Part shown: positions 16,080 through 38,594 of the stretch, piece by piece
How the letters are laid out: each line of letters starts with the position of its first letter
Numbering within the stretch: the first letter of the stretch is position 1
DNA from: a virus
Direction: 5' to 3' (one strand)
Virus record (IMG/VR): IMGVR_UViG_3300031857_000517
Location: 1-38,815 of that record
Length of the DNA: 38,815 bases
Position numbers and translations under genes: made by a program
Notes under the pieces: model-generated
What the model was told of the DNA's origin: nothing
Database searches by the model: none
Seen by the model: only the letters and a program-made list of their open reading frames with translations

Positions 16080-17345
16080 ATGTCAGCAGATGTTTACAAG
16101 AGATTTAGTGTATCTGATACTTTCGTAGTACCATATACAGCGAATAAAAGCTGGGATATTTCATCCGGCTCATTTGCTGATCATAGAATTGTAGTCAACT
16201 TAGGAGTTAATTATAGTGGATCTATATTTGATCCTAATAGTGAATACATAACTAATGGTCAGTATGATAGATTGGTTTACAATTCTATCAATATGATTTA
16301 TTATCCTAAGTTTTTACCATCAGCTTCATCTTTATATTTAATTGAAAGACAAAATACCACACTTAATGATGGTACTTTAACTACTCAGTCTTATAATAGA
16401 GGATTAGTTGATTTAGGTAATTTAGATACAGTTAAATTTTTCCCAACAGGAGCTAATGCTTCTATCTATGTTTTAAACATACCTAGATCTTTAACCAGTG
16501 AAAAAATATTACCTGGTACATTTGAAGTGTTTTTAAATAGTGCCTCTGTTGATTATAAATTTTATGATGACGGAAACTATAATTTATTTTATAGTGGAAG
16601 TCCTGTAGGTTCATCTATTGGAACTACTTTAGTAGCAGGTTCACAAGTAGGAAATATATTCTATGAACAGAATGTTGCTATAATTACTGTTGTACCTAAT
16701 AGTATGAGAGCTACAGCTTGGAGAGGAGCTAATCCTTTCTGTGTTCAAGCATCTCCATCTGTAACACCTAGTGTGACTACTTCAGTAAGTATTACACCTA
16801 GTATTAGTGTGACACCTAGTGTGACACCAAGTGTTAGTGTAAGTCCAAGTATACCAAGCACACCAAGTGTGACTCCATCAACAAGTGCAACACCAAGTGT
16901 AACACCTAGTGTAACACCAACAATTAGTGTAACACCTTCAATAAGTACAACTCCTTCAATAAGTGTAACACCAACAATTAGTGTAACCCCATCAACAACA
17001 CCTCCTACCTTATCAGGTAGTTTATATTTTGATGCTACAACTGGTGCAGGTGGTTATAGTGTCACAGCTATTGATGTGAATGGATCAACACCTACCTTAA
17101 CAAGTGGAACTAATGTTCCGTTTAGTACTGATGGACATGGTTTTGCTACTAACCAAACTGGTAATAATGAAACTTTGAATATCTCAATAGGTGGATTTAC
17201 ATTGAATGGATGTATTCAAGTAACAGACAGTGGTGCAAATTATTATCAACAAAATGTGACTGGAAATGGAACTATTTCATTTACTGGTCTTGTAATAAAT
17301 AATACTACAACAGTTCAGATTATTTTAGCAGATGGAGCTTGTTAA
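16080..17345 (+). CDS. Stalk-and-tip adhesin 1 (PSVTPS repeats, Cys terminus)
   Basis: A 421-residue three-part protein. Residues 1-220 are a globular virion-attachment domain beginning MSADVYKRFSVSDTF. Residues about 224-310 are a low-complexity stalk of PSVTPS/SISVTPS-type units, probably extended and possibly glycosylated. Residues about 311-421 form a Gly/Thr/Asn-rich beta-sandwich tip ending ADGAC. The tip is unrelated in sequence to those of the next two proteins, though all three end in Ala-Cys. The likely role is host surface binding; the receptor is unknown. The next gene follows after a TATTTATA motif. Confidence 0.75.
   Translation: MSADVYKRFSVSDTFVVPYTANKSWDISSGSFADHRIVVNLGVNYSGSIFDPNSEYITNGQYDRLVYNSINMIYYPKFLPSASSLYLIERQNTTLNDGTLTTQSYNRGLVDLGNLDTVKFFPTGANASIYVLNIPRSLTSEKILPGTFEVFLNSASVDYKFYDDGNYNLFYSGSPVGSSIGTTLVAGSQVGNIFYEQNVAIITVVPNSMRATAWRGANPFCVQASPSVTPSVTTSVSITPSISVTPSVTPSVSVSPSIPSTPSVTPSTSATPSVTPSVTPTISVTPSISTTPSISVTPTISVTPSTTPPTLSGSLYFDATTGAGGYSVTAIDVNGSTPTLTSGTNVPFSTDGHGFATNQTGNNETLNISIGGFTLNGCIQVTDSGANYYQQNVTGNGTISFTGLVINNTTTVQIILADGAC
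16759..17001 (+). repeat. Degenerate PSVTPS-coding repeat tract, gene 1
   Basis: Imperfect tandem units of about 12 to 24 bases built on AGTGTNACACC and encoding Pro-Ser-(Val/Ile)-Thr/Ser-Pro-Ser. Bases 16812-16877 match 17586-17651 of the next gene at 63 of 66 positions. Confidence 0.85.
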
Positions 17346-17348
17346 AAA

Positions 17349-17356
17349 TATTTATA
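17349..17356 (+). promoter_or_regulatory. TATTTATA motif, 4 bases from a start
   Basis: Exact TATTTATA between the first and second stalk-and-tip adhesin genes, four bases before the ATG at 17361. Confidence 0.45.
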
Positions 17357-17360
17357 AAAA

Positions 17361-18059
17361 ATGAGTAATACAGGATTTAAAGCATATACAGACCTAGAAC
17401 AATACTATTTAGATAATGGTGTTGCTACTGGTGTGACTAAAACTAATAGTATTAGTGATCCTGATTATATAGCTCCATTTTTAGATTTAGCTTTTTGTCC
17501 ATTACCATCAGCTAGCCCAAGTGTTACACCTACAATTAGTTTAACACCAAGTATTAGTATAAGTCCAAGTGTGACACCAACTGTTACACCTAGTGTGACA
17601 CCAAGTATTAGTGTAAGTCCAAGTATACCAAGTACACCAAGTGTAACTCCAAGTGTGACTCCATCTATTTCTATATCTGCTACACCTAGTGTAACACCAA
17701 CTGTAACACCAAGTATAACACCATCACCATCTGTTGGTTATGCTCCTAGAGTTATAGGAGCAAACGCAAGTACTCAACCTTGTACAGGAGGAAGTTGTGA
17801 TGATTATTTAGGATGGGATATAACATTACTTGAACCTGTATTAGTTGATACAAATTATATTTTATCTATTGAATTATATCAATACAACATATACCAATAC
17901 ACATATCAAGCTTATGGTACAATTTTAGCGGGTCAAAGTTATAATAATAGTGATCCTTGTGCTGGAGGTGGTGCTTATGTAGGATGTAATTATGATGTAA
18001 ATAGTGTTTGTGTTAATTATATTGATGCACCTGTAAATCCATCAACTTTTGCTTGTTAA
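17361..18059 (+). CDS. Stalk-and-tip adhesin 2 (PSVTPS repeats, Cys terminus)
   Basis: A 232-residue protein with a short N-terminal domain (residues 1-48, [20 protein letters not shown]). The stalk of PSVTPS-type units spans residues about 50-128. The Cys-rich tip (about 129-232) contains [21 protein letters not shown] and VNSVCVNY, and ends STFAC. Six cysteines in the tip suggest disulfides or metal binding, unusual for a protein made in the cytoplasm. It is the shortest of the three adhesins; its N-terminal domain may be a minimal attachment part. The next ATG lies two bases after its stop. Confidence 0.75.
17518..17731 (+). repeat. Degenerate PSVTPS-coding repeat tract, gene 2
   Basis: The same repeat family as in the flanking genes, encoding the stalk of the 232-residue adhesin. 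It includes the 66-base block shared with the upstream gene. Confidence 0.85.
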
Positions 18060-18061
18060 TT

Positions 18062-19036
18062 ATGAATAGTAGAACATTAAATACAGGAATCACAAGAATA
18101 AAATTTCAAAACAGTCATACTGTTTATGAGAATTTTATTAAGTGTACTATTAAGGATTATGAATTTAATTTAAGTTATAATCCGTCTCTATTATCAGGTT
18201 CTCAAGCTGCTTTATTCCCATATAGTTCTTCAGTTGGTGGAGATGTATTTTTCAATCCAACAGGCTCAGAATATTTTGGTATATTAAAACCATTCACTAC
18301 AGGTTCAGAATTTTCTCCATACACTAGTGAAATAGGATTATATAATGATGCTGGAGATTTATTAGCAGTAGCAAAATTAGCTTCACCAATGCCATTATCA
18401 TCTAACACTGATATGACATTTTTAGTTAAATATGACACCCAATGGATTAATAAACCATACTTTACTCCTTCAGTGACACCATCAATGACTCCGTCACCAT
18501 CATTTATACCTCCAACACCAACAGTTACACCTTCAGTTACACCTTCAATAAGTGTGACACCAAGTATTAGTGTGACACCTAGTGTAACACCTTCTGCTAC
18601 AACTAGTATAAGTGTGACACCAAGTATTAGTGTGACACCTAGTGTAACACCTTCAATTAGTGTAACTCCAAGCACAACACCAAGTATTAGTGTGACACCT
18701 AGTGTGACACCTTCAACAACACCTCCTAGTAGTGTTTCTTTAATAGTATATGCTAAATATATAAACAGTGGTGGTACTTTAAGATATAAAATTAATAGTG
18801 GAACTTTCAATGAAATTCCTCTTACTTTATCATCAACTTGTGATTACTTATATACAATAACTGGATTAATACCTGGTGATACAGTGACATTTGATGTTGT
18901 TAGTGCGTATGCTATAGCTGGTTCTTCAACATCACCTTGTCCATCATCTGGATTTGGATGTACTTACAACTATGGCGCTGTGAGTGGTGGAACTAATAAC
19001 GTATATATAACAGTAGATGGTTCTACTGCCTGTTAA
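18062..19036 (+). CDS. Stalk-and-tip adhesin 3 (PSVTPS repeats, Cys terminus)
   Basis: 324 residues from the ATG at 18062. An in-frame TTG at 18053 lies inside the previous gene and is less likely. The N-terminal domain (about 1-130) repeats the C-terminal domain of the protein encoded at 14978: [20 protein letters not shown] and then [17 protein letters not shown]. The stalk (about 137-225) has PSVTPS/SISVTPS units. The tip (about 226-324) contains [16 protein letters not shown] and [15 protein letters not shown], and ends GSTAC. It looks like a recombinant of the upstream fibre-base module with a stalk and a new tip. It closes the structural module. Confidence 0.75.
18471..18723 (+). repeat. 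PSVTPS-coding repeat tract, gene 3, with 60-base period
   Basis: Bases 18548-18594 and 18608-18654 are an exact 47-base direct repeat with 60-base spacing. The whole tract encodes the adhesin stalk and shares units with the two preceding genes. Confidence 0.88.
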
Positions 19037-22234: not shown

Positions 22235-22984
22235 ATGAAGATTAGAATTAAAGAAGCGCGACAAACGCCACAGGCAATATTCATGGCGGGCCCAGCAGGT
22301 GCTGGTAAGTCATTTATCGCCAAATCTTTACCACTATCTAAATTCCAAGTAATAAATGTTGACGATACTTATGAAGAATTGCTTAAGGCATCTGGTTTAG
22401 GCATGAAACAAAAGGATTTTGATCCTGAACAATTGTCACAAGCTGGTAAATTAATGGCTCAAGCCCAAAAATCAACTAAGGAAAAATACGCCAAAGCACT
22501 TGAAAATTTAAACGACATTATTATTGATGGAACAGGTGCGGCATCTAAACCATTACTCAAGAAAAAGGCAGAATTAGAGGCTTTAGGGTATGAAACAATG
22601 ATGGTAATGATATATGTTTCTCCAATAACATCACTTGAACGTAATGCTAATAGAGAACGCTCATTAATGCCAGGTATTGTTTTAAGAACATGGAGAGATA
22701 TTAATAGTAATATTGAAACATATGAGCAAGCATTTGGTGACAATTTAGTTGTCATAAATAATGATCCTAAAGACGCTGATAAAAGTTTTGACCCACAAGA
22801 AATAAAACGTAGATTTTTTGACACATCAAAAGCTAAAGGTAAACCAAAAACACCTGAAGAAATAGAAAAGGCAAAAGCTGATATTGCTCAATTAAATAAA
22901 GATATTGAGTTAGCAATTCAACAACAACCAAAATTCACACCCGCTGCTACAACGGTTGCTAAAATAAAGGCATTCATTAAATGA
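22235..22984 (+). CDS. P-loop kinase (zeta-toxin/PNK-like) with MKIRIKE leader
   Basis: A 249-residue protein. It begins MKIRIKE then Ala, a possible capsid-targeting leader with an IKE cleavage site; the kinase fold starts straight afterwards. Walker A is GPAGAGKS (residues 19-26) and VDDTYEELLK follows. IIDGTGAASK is a likely substrate or lid region, and ERNANRERSLMPG supplies the Arg-rich lid. This pattern fits zeta-toxin/AAA_33-type kinases that phosphorylate nucleic acid ends or small substrates. A helical Lys/Gln-rich C-terminal tail follows. It overlaps the next gene by ATGA. The substrate cannot be told from sequence. Confidence 0.78.
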   Translation: MKIRIKEARQTPQAIFMAGPAGAGKSFIAKSLPLSKFQVINVDDTYEELLKASGLGMKQKDFDPEQLSQAGKLMAQAQKSTKEKYAKALENLNDIIIDGTGAASKPLLKKKAELEALGYETMMVMIYVSPITSLERNANRERSLMPGIVLRTWRDINSNIETYEQAFGDNLVVINNDPKDADKSFDPQEIKRRFFDTSKAKGKPKTPEEIEKAKADIAQLNKDIELAIQQQPKFTPAATTVAKIKAFIK

Positions 22985-24780
22985 TAGATTTAAATACTAT
23001 ATTAAGCGAACTAAACGACGACCAAACTAACCCTTCAGCTGTTGCTTATTATCCAGGTGGATTCAAACCACCACATGAAGGACATTATGAGGCAGCTAAA
23101 GATTTAGCTTCACGTCCTAATATATCTAAAGTAATTATTTTAGTAGGACAAAAAGAACGTGATGGTATTACTTCTAAAATGAGTAAGCAAATATGGGATT
23201 TATATCTCGCTGCTGCTCCAATAGCTAAAGTATCAGTTGAAATGTCTAAAGATCCATCTCCAATTAAAGATATTTTTGGAATAATGGATAATAATTTAGA
23301 AATGAAGGCATATGTTGCTGGTGCTAAGGAAGAAGTTGAAGATCAAGGATATTTTTCTTCATTACAAAAAGCATTTGGTAATAGAGTAATGCCTATATCT
23401 ATTGAGGAAAAAATAGTTAGCCAAGGTAAACGTCTATCAGGTACTCAAGTTCGCCAATTAATAGATACTGTTAAAGCATCAGTTTTAAAATTAAGATCTA
23501 TTAAAGATAAAAATTCAAATGAATACTCAAAGGCTAGAAATGAGTATTTAAATAATATAAAAATACTTGAAGGTTGCTTCCCAGAAGCAGTTATTCAAAA
23601 AGGACAATTTGAAGCAATAATGAGAATACTAGGTATTCCTGTTTTAGATGCTGACCAATTACAAGAAAATCAAGAAGACGGAAACATAATTATAAGAGTA
23701 CCTTATAAATTAACACCTAAAATTGAGAACTATCTTAATACAATGTTAGTTCCATTTGAATACTCACAACAAGCATTTGGTGGACAAGAACGTCGTATGT
23801 TAATACCTAATTTAAGTGATGATCCATATCAACGTGAGAAAATACTTAATTGGTTATCTAAAAAAGGTATAGCTATTAACGTAGAAGAAGATCTATTCAC
23901 TATTAAATGGTGGAAATCAACATTAGAAGAAACATTAACTGAGCCTCAAGAAGCATCAGATAATGTTATAGCTGACTTTATTGATTTTGCTGCTAAAGCA
24001 CTTGACTTACAACAAGTACCTAAAATTACTTTTAGTGATGATCAAGAATTAGCTAAAAACATGCATTCATTAGGTGCTTATAATCCTAAAAGTGATGAAT
24101 TATTAGTTGTTAAAGGACCAAGACTAACAGCTGACATTTTACGTACATTAGCTCATGAATTAGTACATCGTAAACAAGATGAATTAAATCCATTAAGTAA
24201 AGAAGATGGGGCTACTGGTTCACCAATTGAAAATGAAGCTAATGCTGCTGCTGGTGTGTTATTAAGACAATTTGGTAAATACAGACCAGAAATATTTGAA
24301 GAAGACGCTAAAGAAAAAGCTGATTATAAGATATATTGTGATATGGATGGTGTTATTGTTGATTTTGATAAAGGATATAAAGAATTAACAGGTAGAGAAG
24401 CTAGCTTTGACACACCTAAAGAAGAATTTTGGGCTCCTATTCAAAAAGCAGGCGCCTCATTTTGGATTAAATTACAATGGATGCCTGATGGAAAAAAATT
24501 ATGGGAATTTATTAAACCATACAATCCAGATTTACTATCAGCTCCATCAAGAGACGAATCATCTAAGATAGGTAAGTTTGTATGGGTGAAAAGAAATGTT
24601 CCTGGTACTAAACTTATATTACGTCAAGCAGAACGTAAACAAGAATTCGCAACACCAAACTCTATCTTAATTGATGATAGAGCTGATAATATACAACGTT
24701 GGAAAGACGCTGGTGGTATTGGAATTGTCCATACATCAGCAGCCGACACAATACAACAATTGAAAGATTTAGGTTTATGA
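22981..24780 (+). CDS. Nucleotidyltransferase / zinc metallopeptidase / HAD phosphatase fusion
   Basis: A 599-residue multidomain protein. Residues 1-10 (MIDLNTILSE) are a leader-like segment. Residues about 20-165 form a cytidylyltransferase-like domain with YYPGGFKPPHEGH (His32, His35) and RLSGTQVRQLI. Residues about 200-310 are unrecognised. Residues about 325-435 form a zincin-like domain with HELVH (392-396) and a downstream ENEANAAAG possibly giving the third ligand. Residues about 448-599 form a HAD domain with DMDGVIVDF (454-462) and SILIDDRADN (561-570), like 5'(3')-deoxyribonucleotidases. LTE at 319-321, in the linker before the peptidase, matches a (L/I)XE processing site. No frameshift or stop separates the domains. 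Confidence 0.8.
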   Translation: MIDLNTILSELNDDQTNPSAVAYYPGGFKPPHEGHYEAAKDLASRPNISKVIILVGQKERDGITSKMSKQIWDLYLAAAPIAKVSVEMSKDPSPIKDIFGIMDNNLEMKAYVAGAKEEVEDQGYFSSLQKAFGNRVMPISIEEKIVSQGKRLSGTQVRQLIDTVKASVLKLRSIKDKNSNEYSKARNEYLNNIKILEGCFPEAVIQKGQFEAIMRILGIPVLDADQLQENQEDGNIIIRVPYKLTPKIENYLNTMLVPFEYSQQAFGGQERRMLIPNLSDDPYQREKILNWLSKKGIAINVEEDLFTIKWWKSTLEETLTEPQEASDNVIADFIDFAAKALDLQQVPKITFSDDQELAKNMHSLGAYNPKSDELLVVKGPRLTADILRTLAHELVHRKQDELNPLSKEDGATGSPIENEANAAAGVLLRQFGKYRPEIFEEDAKEKADYKIYCDMDGVIVDFDKGYKELTGREASFDTPKEEFWAPIQKAGASFWIKLQWMPDGKKLWEFIKPYNPDLLSAPSRDESSKIGKFVWVKRNVPGTKLILRQAERKQEFATPNSILIDDRADNIQRWKDAGGIGIVHTSAADTIQQLKDLGL

Positions 24781-30016: not shown

Positions 30017-31897
30017 ATGAAAAAAATTAAAATTATAAGATCTCGTCCTCTTAAAGAAGTAGATGATGAAGTAGTTGATCAGGCTTTAACAAATAATAAA
30101 CCTGAAGAACTTACTTATGAGTCTAATCCTTTAGAGTTTATTTTACAAAAATATCCTTCATTAACAGAGACTTTAGTTGAGTTATTGACTGAAGACTTTA
30201 GAGATTATCTTAATGGTATCTATATAATGGCTCCTAAGCCAACAGTATTTAAGGTTGTTTTACATAATAATCAATATTTCTATCTAACATGGATGGGTAA
30301 AACTTATGAAGCTAAAGTAAGTGGTAAAAAATACTGGTTATCAAGTATAGGTGAATTAGAAAGAGCAACTATTGAAATAGCTAACCTATTAATGTTAGGA
30401 GCAGCTCCTTCAACTCAAGGACCTGAAGCAGAAATGACTTCTGCTCCAGAAGAAACACCTGAAGAGACACCTGAAGAAACACCTGAGGAAACACCAGAAG
30501 AAGAAGCACCTGAAGAAATACAAGAATCAAAAAAAAAGTTTCTATTAAATTTACTAGAAAACATAGTTACTGAGTTAACTATATCTCCTGATTACCAAAC
30601 AAAAAAAGGACCTAATCCTTATTATACTATCACACCTGAAGCTGAGTCTAATGTTAAAAAAGCTTTAAAAGGTAAAGCAGATACTAGTAATTTACTTTTC
30701 AAAAATGTAGAAAAACCAGGTACTCTAATTTACCAAGAAAAAGGAAATAATTATTTCCAAATAATGAATTTAATTGATGGTAAAGCTAAAGCTACAAAAT
30801 ACTATATAGCCTTATCTAAATCATCAGTGACAGGACATTATGGAGAATCAAGTAAAGGATCTGGTGGTGGTGCTGAACAAACAGCAGTTCAAGAATCTGC
30901 TCAATGTTTAGTTAATGCTATTCGTTATAATAAAGGAAAAGATATAACACCTAAAGATTTAACAGCGACTAATATTAAATCTGCTTCAAAACGTACAAAT
31001 ACATCTTCATCACTTGAAGAAATGGTAACATTCCTTAAAGATAATCCAGATTGGCAAGTAACAGCTTCTAGCACAGCTAATGCTTTAGCTAAACAATATC
31101 CTAGCAACTTTACCTTTTATAGACAATCAGGTATTGTTCCTAGAATAGAAGCTGCGGCTAAAATAGCACTTAAAAATGCTGGAGTAGATGCAAACATAAA
31201 TAAATGGAATCCAGCTGATATGTGGATGGCTACTGATGAAGTTAAGGATATTGAATTTCCTACTAATTTAGAACAATTAAATGCGTTGATAGCTAAACTA
31301 TTTAACGCTAAAAAATTAATTGGAGTATCATTAAAAAAATGTAGCGCTTGTAAAGTTGAAGTTTATAATAATCCAAAAGTAGCAAAATCAACTACTAAAT
31401 TTGATAAAATAGAACCTATAGACAAAAATATATTTGCTACTAAAGATATCTATTTAAGTTTTGAAGGTGGTAAAGTACAATTTAGAAATTTCAATGACAT
31501 AACTAGCTGGCAAGGAGAAATTAAAGGTAAAGAAGCATCAGGTGGTAAAATAGGACAAGGAATTGTTAGTTCCATCTTAAAAAGTTTAGGACAACCTGGT
31601 TTATCTAACCAAAAAGAAATATTAACATCTTGTCAAAAACCAGACGCTGGTTTTATAAGTAATTTTTATAAATTATATAACAATACTAAATCATTATCTA
31701 AAGTAAGTACTGAAGAATTTACTAATAACTTTAAAAAAGCACCATTAGGTAATAGAACAAGTAATTATTTTAATGTTGAATTTTTAAACCAATTTGGTAA
31801 ATTAAGTAGTGACAATAAAGATAAATTTATAAGTGAATTAGTTGGATATGCTAAATCAAGTTCTAGCTTCTCATCTATATTCGCTAAAGTATCATAA
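30017..31897 (+). CDS. Two-part protein: N-domain, PEET linker, PD-(D/E)XK-like C-domain
   Basis: A 626-residue protein. The leader is MKKIKIIRSRPLKE (LKE at 12-14). Residues about 73-128 form a small domain (TVFKVVLHNNQYFYLTWMGK). Residues 145-170 are acidic PEET repeats ending IQE-Ser, another (L/I)XE-type site. Residues about 190-626 form a large domain with AVQESAQCLVNAIRY (Glu293), KWNPADMW (Asp401) and LIGVSLKK (Lys440). The E...D...xxK order suggests a restriction-endonuclease-like fold, with Ser replacing the usual Glu; this is a weak assignment. It could be packaged as a precursor with two products. It ends a transcription unit. Confidence 0.7.
   Translation: MKKIKIIRSRPLKEVDDEVVDQALTNNKPEELTYESNPLEFILQKYPSLTETLVELLTEDFRDYLNGIYIMAPKPTVFKVVLHNNQYFYLTWMGKTYEAKVSGKKYWLSSIGELERATIEIANLLMLGAAPSTQGPEAEMTSAPEETPEETPEETPEETPEEEAPEEIQESKKKFLLNLLENIVTELTISPDYQTKKGPNPYYTITPEAESNVKKALKGKADTSNLLFKNVEKPGTLIYQEKGNNYFQIMNLIDGKAKATKYYIALSKSSVTGHYGESSKGSGGGAEQTAVQESAQCLVNAIRYNKGKDITPKDLTATNIKSASKRTNTSSSLEEMVTFLKDNPDWQVTASSTANALAKQYPSNFTFYRQSGIVPRIEAAAKIALKNAGVDANINKWNPADMWMATDEVKDIEFPTNLEQLNALIAKLFNAKKLIGVSLKKCSACKVEVYNNPKVAKSTTKFDKIEPIDKNIFATKDIYLSFEGGKVQFRNFNDITSWQGEIKGKEASGGKIGQGIVSSILKSLGQPGLSNQKEILTSCQKPDAGFISNFYKLYNNTKSLSKVSTEEFTNNFKKAPLGNRTSNYFNVEFLNQFGKLSSDNKDKFISELVGYAKSSSSFSSIFAKVS
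30448..30510 (+). repeat. PEET-coding tandem repeat
   Basis: Four imperfect 12-base units of the form GAAACACCTGAA, encoding Pro-Glu-Glu-Thr, then degenerate acidic codons. Unit number could vary by slippage. Confidence 0.8.
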
Positions 31898-37004: not shown

Positions 37005-38594
37005 ATGAGTGATCAACAGAATATTAAAGAGATAATTAAACAGGAGTATATTAAATGCGCAACTGATCCTGTTTATTTTATGAGAAAATATTATTGGATT
37101 CAACACCCACAACGCGGCAGAATTCAATTTAATCTATATCCATTTCAGGAAGGTGTATTACATCAATTTAAAAAGAATAAATATAGTATTGTAAATAAGT
37201 CAAGACAGTTAGGTATATCTACTCTATCTTCAGCTTATTCACTTTGGTTAATGTTATTTAATAAAGATAAAAACGTACTTTGTATCGCTACTAAGCAGGA
37301 AACTGCTAAAAACATGGTTACTAAAGTAAAATTTGCTTATGATAACTTACCAAGTTGGTTACAACTAAAAGCTATAGAAAACAATAAATTAAGTCTAAAA
37401 TTAAGTAACGGGTCTCAAATTAAAGCAATTGGAGCGACAGGCGACGCAGGTAGATCTGAAGCCGTGTCATTACTGTTACTAGATGAGGCGGCGTTTATTG
37501 AAGGTATTGATGAGATTTTCGCTTCTGCTCAACAAACCTTGGCTACAGGAGGTCAATGTATTGCTATTTCAACTCCATTTGGTACAGGTAACTGGTTCCA
37601 TAGAACATTTATTGGAGGTGAAGAAGGTAAAAATGGATTTGTATCTATCAAATTACCTTGGACTGTACACCCTGAACGATCTCAAAAATGGAGAGATGAA
37701 CAAGATGCTATTTTAGGAGTTAGAAACGCCGCTCAAGAATGTGATTGTGACTTTACTACTTCAGGTGATACAGTAGTTGAACCTGATATTTTAAACTGGT
37801 ATATTCAAACATATCAAGCTGATCCTATAGCTAAAGGTGGATTTGATGGTAATTTATGGCGTTGGGAATATCCTGACTATACAAAACAATATATGGTTAT
37901 AGCTGACGTAGCTAGAGGTGATGGTAAAGACTATTCCGCATGCCATGTAATTGATATAAATGAAGCTAAACAAGTAGAAGAATATAAAGGACAAATTGGT
38001 ACTCGTGACTATGGTCATTTATTAGTATCAATAGCTACTGAATGGAATAATGCTTTGTTAGTAATTGAAAACGCTAATATTGGTTGGGATACAATACAAA
38101 CAGTACTAGATAGAGGATACCAAAATGTATATTACTCATCTAAATCAGATACTGCTAACATCACAATGGATAATTTTTTAAACAGAAATGATAATAACTT
38201 AGTACCTGGTTTCACTAACTCTACTAAAACAAGACCACTTGTTGTTTCAAAATTAGAAGCATATATGCGTGACAGAGCTTGTGTTATTCAATCTCGTCGA
38301 CTATTAGAAGAATTAAGAACATTTGTTTGGAAACATGGTAAAGCTCAAGCTAATGATGGGTATAATGATGATCTTATAATGGCCTTTGGTATTGGTATGT
38401 TTCTACGTGACACTGCTTTAAAATTCTCTCAAACAGGTATGGATTTAACTCGTGCTTCGCTTGGAGGTATAGGAAGAATTTCGTATAATACCGGAGCAAG
38501 TAGCTTTTACTCACCGCATAATCCAACCCCTGATAATCCTTGGAAAATGGATGATGGCAGAGGCGGTATGGAAGACATCAGCTGGTTAATATAA
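37005..38594 (+). CDS. 17: Terminase large subunit, gp17-like
   Basis: A 529-residue packaging motor and nuclease. The ATPase half shows an unusual T4-type Walker A, SRQLGIST (residues 66-73), Walker B LLLLDEAAFIE (156-166) and a coupling-motif region AISTPFGTGNWF. The nuclease half starts at MVIADVARGDGKDYSA (Asp301, Asp310), with VIENANIGW and the C-terminal acidic YNDDLIMAF. The length fits the family (T4 gp17 is 610 residues). It is expected to dock on the portal encoded next and fill the prohead. No small terminase gene is found upstream of it in this window. Confidence 0.95.
   Translation: MSDQQNIKEIIKQEYIKCATDPVYFMRKYYWIQHPQRGRIQFNLYPFQEGVLHQFKKNKYSIVNKSRQLGISTLSSAYSLWLMLFNKDKNVLCIATKQETAKNMVTKVKFAYDNLPSWLQLKAIENNKLSLKLSNGSQIKAIGATGDAGRSEAVSLLLLDEAAFIEGIDEIFASAQQTLATGGQCIAISTPFGTGNWFHRTFIGGEEGKNGFVSIKLPWTVHPERSQKWRDEQDAILGVRNAAQECDCDFTTSGDTVVEPDILNWYIQTYQADPIAKGGFDGNLWRWEYPDYTKQYMVIADVARGDGKDYSACHVIDINEAKQVEEYKGQIGTRDYGHLLVSIATEWNNALLVIENANIGWDTIQTVLDRGYQNVYYSSKSDTANITMDNFLNRNDNNLVPGFTNSTKTRPLVVSKLEAYMRDRACVIQSRRLLEELRTFVWKHGKAQANDGYNDDLIMAFGIGMFLRDTALKFSQTGMDLTRASLGGIGRISYNTGASSFYSPHNPTPDNPWKMDDGRGGMEDISWLI

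Follow-up and report, generated by a model that had tools for sequence, protein, structure and literature searches.

Candidate head-packaged carrier proteins with interchangeable restriction endonuclease-like cargos in aquatic T4-like phages

Introduction

The internal head proteins of phage T4 (IPI, IPII, IPIII and Alt) carry capsid targeting sequences, peptides of 10–19 residues that gp21 removes during head maturation (PMC9026906). Staphylococcal nuclease and EcoRI have been packaged artificially in T4 heads as IPIII or CTS fusions (PMC9026906), and a T4 head can thus hold a nuclease. Constant N-terminal delivery parts joined to variable C-terminal effectors are also found in polymorphic toxins, MuF-fused effectors and polyvalent proteins of phages and mobile elements, and head packaging has been predicted for the MuF-fused and polyvalent effectors (PMC9503650, PMC5512222). 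A third point of comparison is provided by the type II restriction endonucleases MspI, HinP1I and HhaI; type II enzymes, MspI included, show variation at their active-site positions (PMC4081073).

Here we describe a reading frame from an aquatic T4-like phage whose product shares features with each of these systems. It resembles the T4 internal head proteins in its short N-terminal peptide ending in LxE, in the presence of a gp21-family protease in its relatives, and in a cargo that is predicted to reside in the head and to be ejected; it differs from them in the restriction endonuclease (REase)-like nature of that cargo, in an extra carrier domain, in a second, internal cut site, and in the exchange of cargos. 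Its carrier, like the constant part of polymorphic toxin, MuF-fused and polyvalent systems, precedes variable C-terminal domains, but its targeting is of the T4 type and it contains a prohead-protease site, no MuF domain was detected in the carrier-cargo proteins, and no effector-specific immunity gene was found next to them. One cargo (cargo F) is predicted to have the fold of MspI, HinP1I and HhaI, and cargo F also has the E..D..SxK order seen in cargo A, the cargo of the phage analyzed here. Cargo A differs from these enzymes in giving no direct fold match, in that no partner methyltransferase was found, and in belonging to a phage precursor and not to a restriction-modification locus of a host.

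The new element is that one head-delivery carrier is joined to restriction-type cargos that are swapped among relatives; in the open-licence papers searched we found no description of an interchangeable restriction endonuclease cargo released by a prohead protease. Cargos A, B, C and F match PHROG families 1462, 12709, 13937 and 22045, which have no function in PHROG. They are linked here as alternatives of one delivery system and gain a testable identity in abundant aquatic phages, among them those of Synechococcus, Prochlorococcus and Pelagibacter and relatives of a Flavobacterium phage.

Results and Discussion

Genome context and organization of the reading frame

The analyzed DNA, referred to here as the window, is the whole stretch of 38,815 bases at positions 1–38,815 of IMG/VR virus record IMGVR_UViG_3300031857_000517, and is DNA of an aquatic T4-like phage. 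As read from translations, its left part contains baseplate- and tail-like genes, and a terminase-like gene lies at 37005–38594. Among the tail genes, three consecutive proteins (16080–19036) carry long repeats.

The reading frame runs uninterrupted from an ATG at 30017 to a stop at 31897, and residues 259–626 of its product match PHROG family 1462 (E 1e-51). A Pfam scan gave no match above threshold, and comparison with PDB sequences by phmmer and by profile search returned nothing meaningful. Sub-threshold matches to Lipocalin (0.13) and malate:quinone oxidoreductase (0.009) in Pfam, NCBIfam and PADLOC scans were unconvincing and were set aside. An initial annotation of this DNA had pointed to an LKE ending at residue 14, an IQE ending at residue 170 and followed by S171, a PEET-type linker, and E293, D401 (in KWNPADMW) and K440 (in GVSLKK; S438-L-K440), and all of these positions are exact. 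The parts of the protein, together with two candidate co-packaged proteins, are listed in Table 1.

Table 1. Features of the precursor reading frame and of two other candidate genes in the window.
Feature	Coordinates	Strand	Conservation or basis
Precursor of 626 aa: targeting peptide, carrier, acidic linker, cut site, cargo A (phrog_1462)	30017..31897	+	
Targeting-type peptide at the N terminus, last residues L12-K13-E14; the prohead protease is predicted to cut behind E14	30017..30058	+	LKE/IKE in close relatives
Carrier domain, residues ~30–135, common to proteins with different cargos	30104..30421	+	
Acidic PEET-type linker, length and sequence vary among relatives	30434..30517	+	
I168-Q169-E170-S171, predicted prohead-protease site	30518..30529	+	E170 invariant in 26/26 carriers
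L179-L180-E181-N182, possible second cut site and cargo start	30551..30562	+	Based on LxE-type sites that most relatives have at this position
Cargo A core, residues ~284–626, putative variant PD-(D/E)XK-like nuclease domain	30866..31894	+	
Glu293, helix	30893..30895	+	Conserved in 41/41 homologues covering the position
Asp401 of KWNPADMW, directly preceding a strand	31217..31219	+	Invariant in 42/42
Ser438-Leu-Lys440 (SxK motif), on and at the end of a strand	31328..31336	+	Invariant in 42/42
WQGEIKGK block, residues 498–505	31508..31531	+	W498, Q499, E501, K503 and K505 invariant
P-loop kinase-like protein (Zeta_toxin/AAA_33), start MKIRIKE/A, candidate co-packaged	22235..22984	+	
Protein with weak nucleotidyltransferase (CTP_transf_like) start, ILSE/L site, candidate co-packaged	22981..24780	+	

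A conserved carrier with alternative cargos

A scan of IMG/VR yielded 187 loci, of which 80 were kept, and tblastn returned 145 phage records, mostly of T4-like cyanophages. Most of these relatives match the C-terminal domain only, and in other viruses that domain stands alone. A search with residues 1–170, the carrier part, gave 25 loci, which were then translated. At least six different C-terminal domains (Table 2) were found behind a shared module of targeting start, carrier, acidic linker and LxE site, an arrangement of constant N-terminal part and different C-terminal domains that is characteristic of polymorphic toxins. Searches with the cargos added distant carriers fused to cargo D or F. 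By inspection, each of the six cargos has an E...D...SxK order; cargos A and C overlap in part, with ~50% identity in the stretch ahead of the core between L003 (A) and L085 (C).

Table 2. Cargo types found behind the carrier.
Cargo	Loci
A	Window, L002, L003, L101
B	L082-084, L086, L087, L089, L090, L094, L104, L105
C	L085
D	L091
E	L092, L093, L096, L097, L099
F	L095, L098
Carrier, no cargo	L100, L102, L103

The types of genes downstream are the same for every cargo, so the exchange lies inside one gene at one locus. Swapping of the cargo between relatives by recombination at the linker would be expected of an arms-race effector. In the three carrier genes with no cargo the reading frame closes just past the cut site (LKES-FKRFRIKM stop). 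Such carriers may serve a function by themselves or may have lost a cargo.

Other arrangements were also observed. In L032, L034, L036 and L038 a standalone cargo F gene (MKPFKQFISE/D) immediately precedes a standalone cargo A gene, and one phage can thus carry two cargos. A second N-terminal module, of KGYPD type (M..FDKFFxKFAYKFPKGYPDMNN.QD..LLE), precedes standalone cargo D, cargo F and one cargo A protein (L152-L185, L116 and L130), and also occurs in the nuclease-like protein P0003 of Flavobacterium phage immuto (L107:12417-13478); it may be another head-targeting part. In immuto the carrier domain is followed by P0003 as the product of a separate gene, for which no family match was found. 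Its GKGE...GDV...EIK order, read by eye, makes it a putative nuclease-like protein.

Predicted cleavage sites and the prohead protease

E170 is invariant in 26 aligned carrier homologues with differing downstream parts, and the linker is otherwise variable in length and sequence. All 26 carriers have [LIV]-x-E followed by S, G, A, D, N or Q at this place. Shuffled linker ends contained a mean of 0.19 such sites (maximum 3) as opposed to the 26 real ones, a figure that measures conservation among 26 kindred sequences and is not an independent-sample probability. The LxE cut-site pattern exceeds chance.

Judged by sequence alone, the protein also has an N-terminal targeting peptide ending in LxE/IxE, as the T4 internal proteins do. 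Outside the close relatives, which have LKE or IKE, distant carriers begin with LIREE- or LLLQE-type peptides, and L003 has none. Several standalone cargo A homologues begin like T4 internal-protein targeting peptides (MKSFKTYFLTE/A, MKSFIQYLSE/S, MKSFKGFLVE/G). Another large group of cargo A homologues starts almost at the conserved helix (MAEGISGAGAEVTALAES) and lacks an obvious LxE targeting peptide, as does ORF90 of cyanophage S-SCSM1.

An extra LxE-type site, LLE181-N182, is found ~10 residues past IQE-S, and most relatives have LIKE-N, LLKE-S or IVE-A there. This second site suggests that the carrier-cargo fusion derives from two separately targeted proteins.

A gene for a gp21-type protease (Peptidase_S77) is present in nine of 20 relative contigs and in immuto, so that a prohead protease of the T4 kind occurs in the same phages; none was found within the 38.8-kb window, which is a phage fragment. 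The initial annotation had proposed a cleavable precursor that releases a C-terminal cargo, and the proposal that the precursor is cut open and its cargo freed is well supported, albeit by inference, by the invariance of the predicted site, the swapping of cargos behind a conserved carrier, the protease of the relatives and the virion label of a homologue (see below).

The cargo A domain as a candidate nuclease

The initial annotation had read the C-terminal part as a possible PD-(D/E)XK-type nuclease on the order of Glu293, Asp401 and Lys440, and had looked to conservation of these residues in homologues. They are conserved: D401, S438 and K440 are invariant in all 42 non-redundant cargo A homologues, and E293 in all 41 that cover it. 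The proposed active-site motif is SxK and differs from the canonical (D/E)xK. The WQGEIKGK block possibly contributes further active-site or DNA-binding residues.

Structure models cover cargos A and F. From about residue 290 onward the AlphaFold2 model of cargo A is of high confidence (pLDDT mostly >90). It places E293 in a helix and D401 right before a strand; a helix comes next, and SLK is on and at the end of the strand after it. The conserved Glu (helix), Asp (strand) and xK motif expected of a PD-(D/E)XK enzyme are present in a variant SxK form with compatible secondary structure. Comparison of this model with the PDB (Foldseek, VIA-align) listed no nuclease, with a best VIA Z of 2.6. 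Against predicted viral structures it matched cyanophage homologues and, more weakly, Campylobacter phage CP20 and one Myoviridae contig. In a search of one genome per species across 84,980 species only four cargo A matches were found, all on MAG contigs, and there is no sign in it of cargo A as an ordinary chromosomal restriction enzyme.

The strongest evidence is of an indirect kind and is provided by the other cargos that occupy this slot. The cargo F model gave HinP1I (Z 10.1 and 9.7), MspI (Z 9.4) and HhaI (Z 7.2), with the next match listed at Z 3.1; Foldseek gave MspI at probability 1.00 and E 1.4e-3. Invariant residues of cargo F include E26, D108, S117, K119 and Q124, and the model indicates a restriction endonuclease fold of the MspI/HinP1I/HhaI type. 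Cargo C matches the PADLOC model for type II restriction enzymes (REase_II, E 1.2e-5), and a homologue is annotated as 'type-2 restriction enzyme'. By profile comparison cargo A is a distant relative of cargo D (hhalign, probability 89%, E 2.4e-6), with KWNPADMW aligned to KWCPGDVYV and SLK to SLK; removing shared modules had lowered this probability from 92–94%, and only the cleaned A–D comparison is used. Earlier comparisons that set the profiles of cargos C and G against those of A and D were contaminated by shared N-terminal modules and were discarded. No relation between cargos A and F was seen by profile.

The order and invariance of the residues, the profile link to cargo D and the REase-like character of cargos C and F support the nuclease assignment of the initial annotation, and the SxK motif and the lack of a PDB fold match for cargo A count against it. 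From the invariant E/D/SxK residues, the cargo D link and the two REase-like cargos in the same slot, cargo A of the window is probably a nuclease.

Virion association and neighbouring genes

S-SCSM1 ORF90, a cargo A homologue, is labelled 'virion protein' in GenBank. The S-SCSM1 report lists 45 virion proteins identified by mass spectrometry, including 13 without a known function (PMC9602691), and its authors note that some non-structural proteins may be carry-over in CsCl-purified virions (PMC9602691). NMNAT/cytidylyltransferase-like proteins, whose genes adjoin the cargo slot, have repeatedly been detected in cyanophage virions (PMC9602691, PMC3037559, PMC10665884). For immuto, a Flavobacterium phage paper that we consulted yielded no virion proteome. 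The virion proteome of S-CREM2 includes a CRISPR-Cas9-type nuclease and an S-adenosyl methionine hydrolase (PMC10665884), in line with cyanophage virions carrying enzymes active on nucleic acids.

LxE-like motifs lie near the start of 12 of the 17 genes around the window ORF, compared with 3–6 in control windows of the same proteins, and a strict LxE-type start is found in six of these 17 and in none of 26 other genes. At 22235–24780 the window encodes two proteins whose N-termini are of LxE type, a P-loop kinase and a protein that starts like an NMNAT and has a phosphatase-like part further on. These two proteins and the nuclease resemble a group of enzymes packaged together.

A DUF6267 protein with a KWDGAPAI motif (KxDG, ligase-like) comes after cargos B, C and F in cyanophage, Stenotrophomonas, Pelagibacter and Methylophilales phages; copies lie at L208:5014-6216, L207:4944-6179, L201:4950-6182 and L202:5028-6275, and that of DLP6 begins MKFTQFLAE/S. 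None was found in the close relatives of the window that were searched.

Proposed pathway and alternative explanations

On balance we favor, with some reserve, the reading that the product of ORF 30017–31897 is a head-packaged, gp21-processed, ejected nuclease of a T4-like phage. The steps that we infer are cleavage, the nuclease activity of cargo A, ejection and target. The N-terminal peptide and carrier domain would bring the precursor into the prohead core, and a gp21-type prohead protease would cut after LxE/IxE at E14, E170 and perhaps E181. Cutting would free the C-terminal variant PD-(D/E)XK nuclease (restriction-endonuclease-like, E...D...SxK), which would remain in the head alongside the genome, be ejected with it at infection, and most likely cut non-self DNA such as the host chromosome, plasmids, prophages or co-infecting phages. 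The chances are about even for the wider proposal that many aquatic T4-like phages inject interchangeable, prohead-protease-released REase-like enzymes with their genomes, together with the P-loop kinase, the NMNAT and the DUF6267 protein.

These patterns suggest that phages inject restriction-type nucleases as weapons, which are swapped in at one cargo site next to a built-in site for release, and a carrier with interchangeable cutter-like domains suggests a general route for injecting nucleases alongside a phage genome. If this is true, the phage would attack host or rival DNA by restriction ahead of any phage gene expression. The role of the many unknown virion proteins of cyanophages, an old question, also becomes directly testable.

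An alternative to which we give a modest minority of the weight is that the protein is packaged and cleaved and its cargo is something other than an offensive nuclease. Such a cargo might, for instance, act on a host defence molecule or on RNA and so shield the entering genome or the first stage of infection, or it might be a pseudo-enzyme that binds DNA and helps to organise it in the head. Some members of the PD-(D/E)XK superfamily do not cleave DNA, and our analyses of palindromes and methyltransferases (see below) found no mechanism of self-protection. A protective cargo has a precedent in IPI, the best-known internal protein of T4, which is an injected anti-restriction inhibitor (PMC9026906). 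However, the strict invariance of E, D, S and K favors catalysis, cargos C and F are specifically restriction-enzyme-like, and the E/D/SxK order is kept by all of the at least six cargos.

Many phage nucleases are produced within the infected cell, and it is conceivable, albeit improbable, that this enzyme too is made there for host-DNA degradation or phage exclusion and is not packaged, with the LxE sites coincidental or cut in another way. The cargo A group that lacks a targeting peptide would agree with this, and the virion label of the S-SCSM1 homologue, which speaks for packaging, has to be set beside the possible carry-over noted in that report (PMC9602691). The invariance of the cut site across different cargos argues against this reading, as does the excess of LxE-type starts among neighbouring genes over controls, and the NMNAT-like products of the same neighbourhood are repeatedly found in virions. 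Least probable is a selfish, homing-like nuclease that would cut a co-infecting relative at the corresponding allele and spread via the conserved flanks, with packaging secondary. The frequent replacement of alleles at one site between conserved flanks would be accounted for, but cargos are exchanged in frame while carrier and cut site stay intact, the carrier occurs alone in several phages, and Pfam scans of the cargos revealed no HNH, GIY-YIG or LAGLIDADG homing family.

Methylation, immunity and palindrome usage

No methyltransferase of families PF01555, PF00145 or PF02086 was found in nine relative contigs, all possibly partial, and with no partner methyltransferase found in them we do not class the cargo system as restriction-modification. 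Among the carrier loci no adjacent gene is tied to cargo type as an immunity gene would be; since no adjacent effector-specific immunity gene was found, we do not class the system with the polymorphic toxins either, although it works like one. The phage's own DNA could possibly be spared by base modification, by a use of two sites, by non-palindromic targets, or by specificity for host modifications.

Palindromes of 4 and 6 bp show no clear cargo-specific depletion in the carrier phages. GCGC stands at 0.45–0.60 in cargo A phages, yet at 0.65–0.72 in several others, with small counts. Whatever the cargo, nearly every carrier phage (the window and L082-L103) has few CATG, GGTACC and GGATCC sites, perhaps as a result of host restriction; by group, CATG is low throughout, and the two 6-bp sites throughout or nearly so. 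GTAC occurs at twice its expectation (364 compared with 178) in contig G012 alone (L222, L223, L099).
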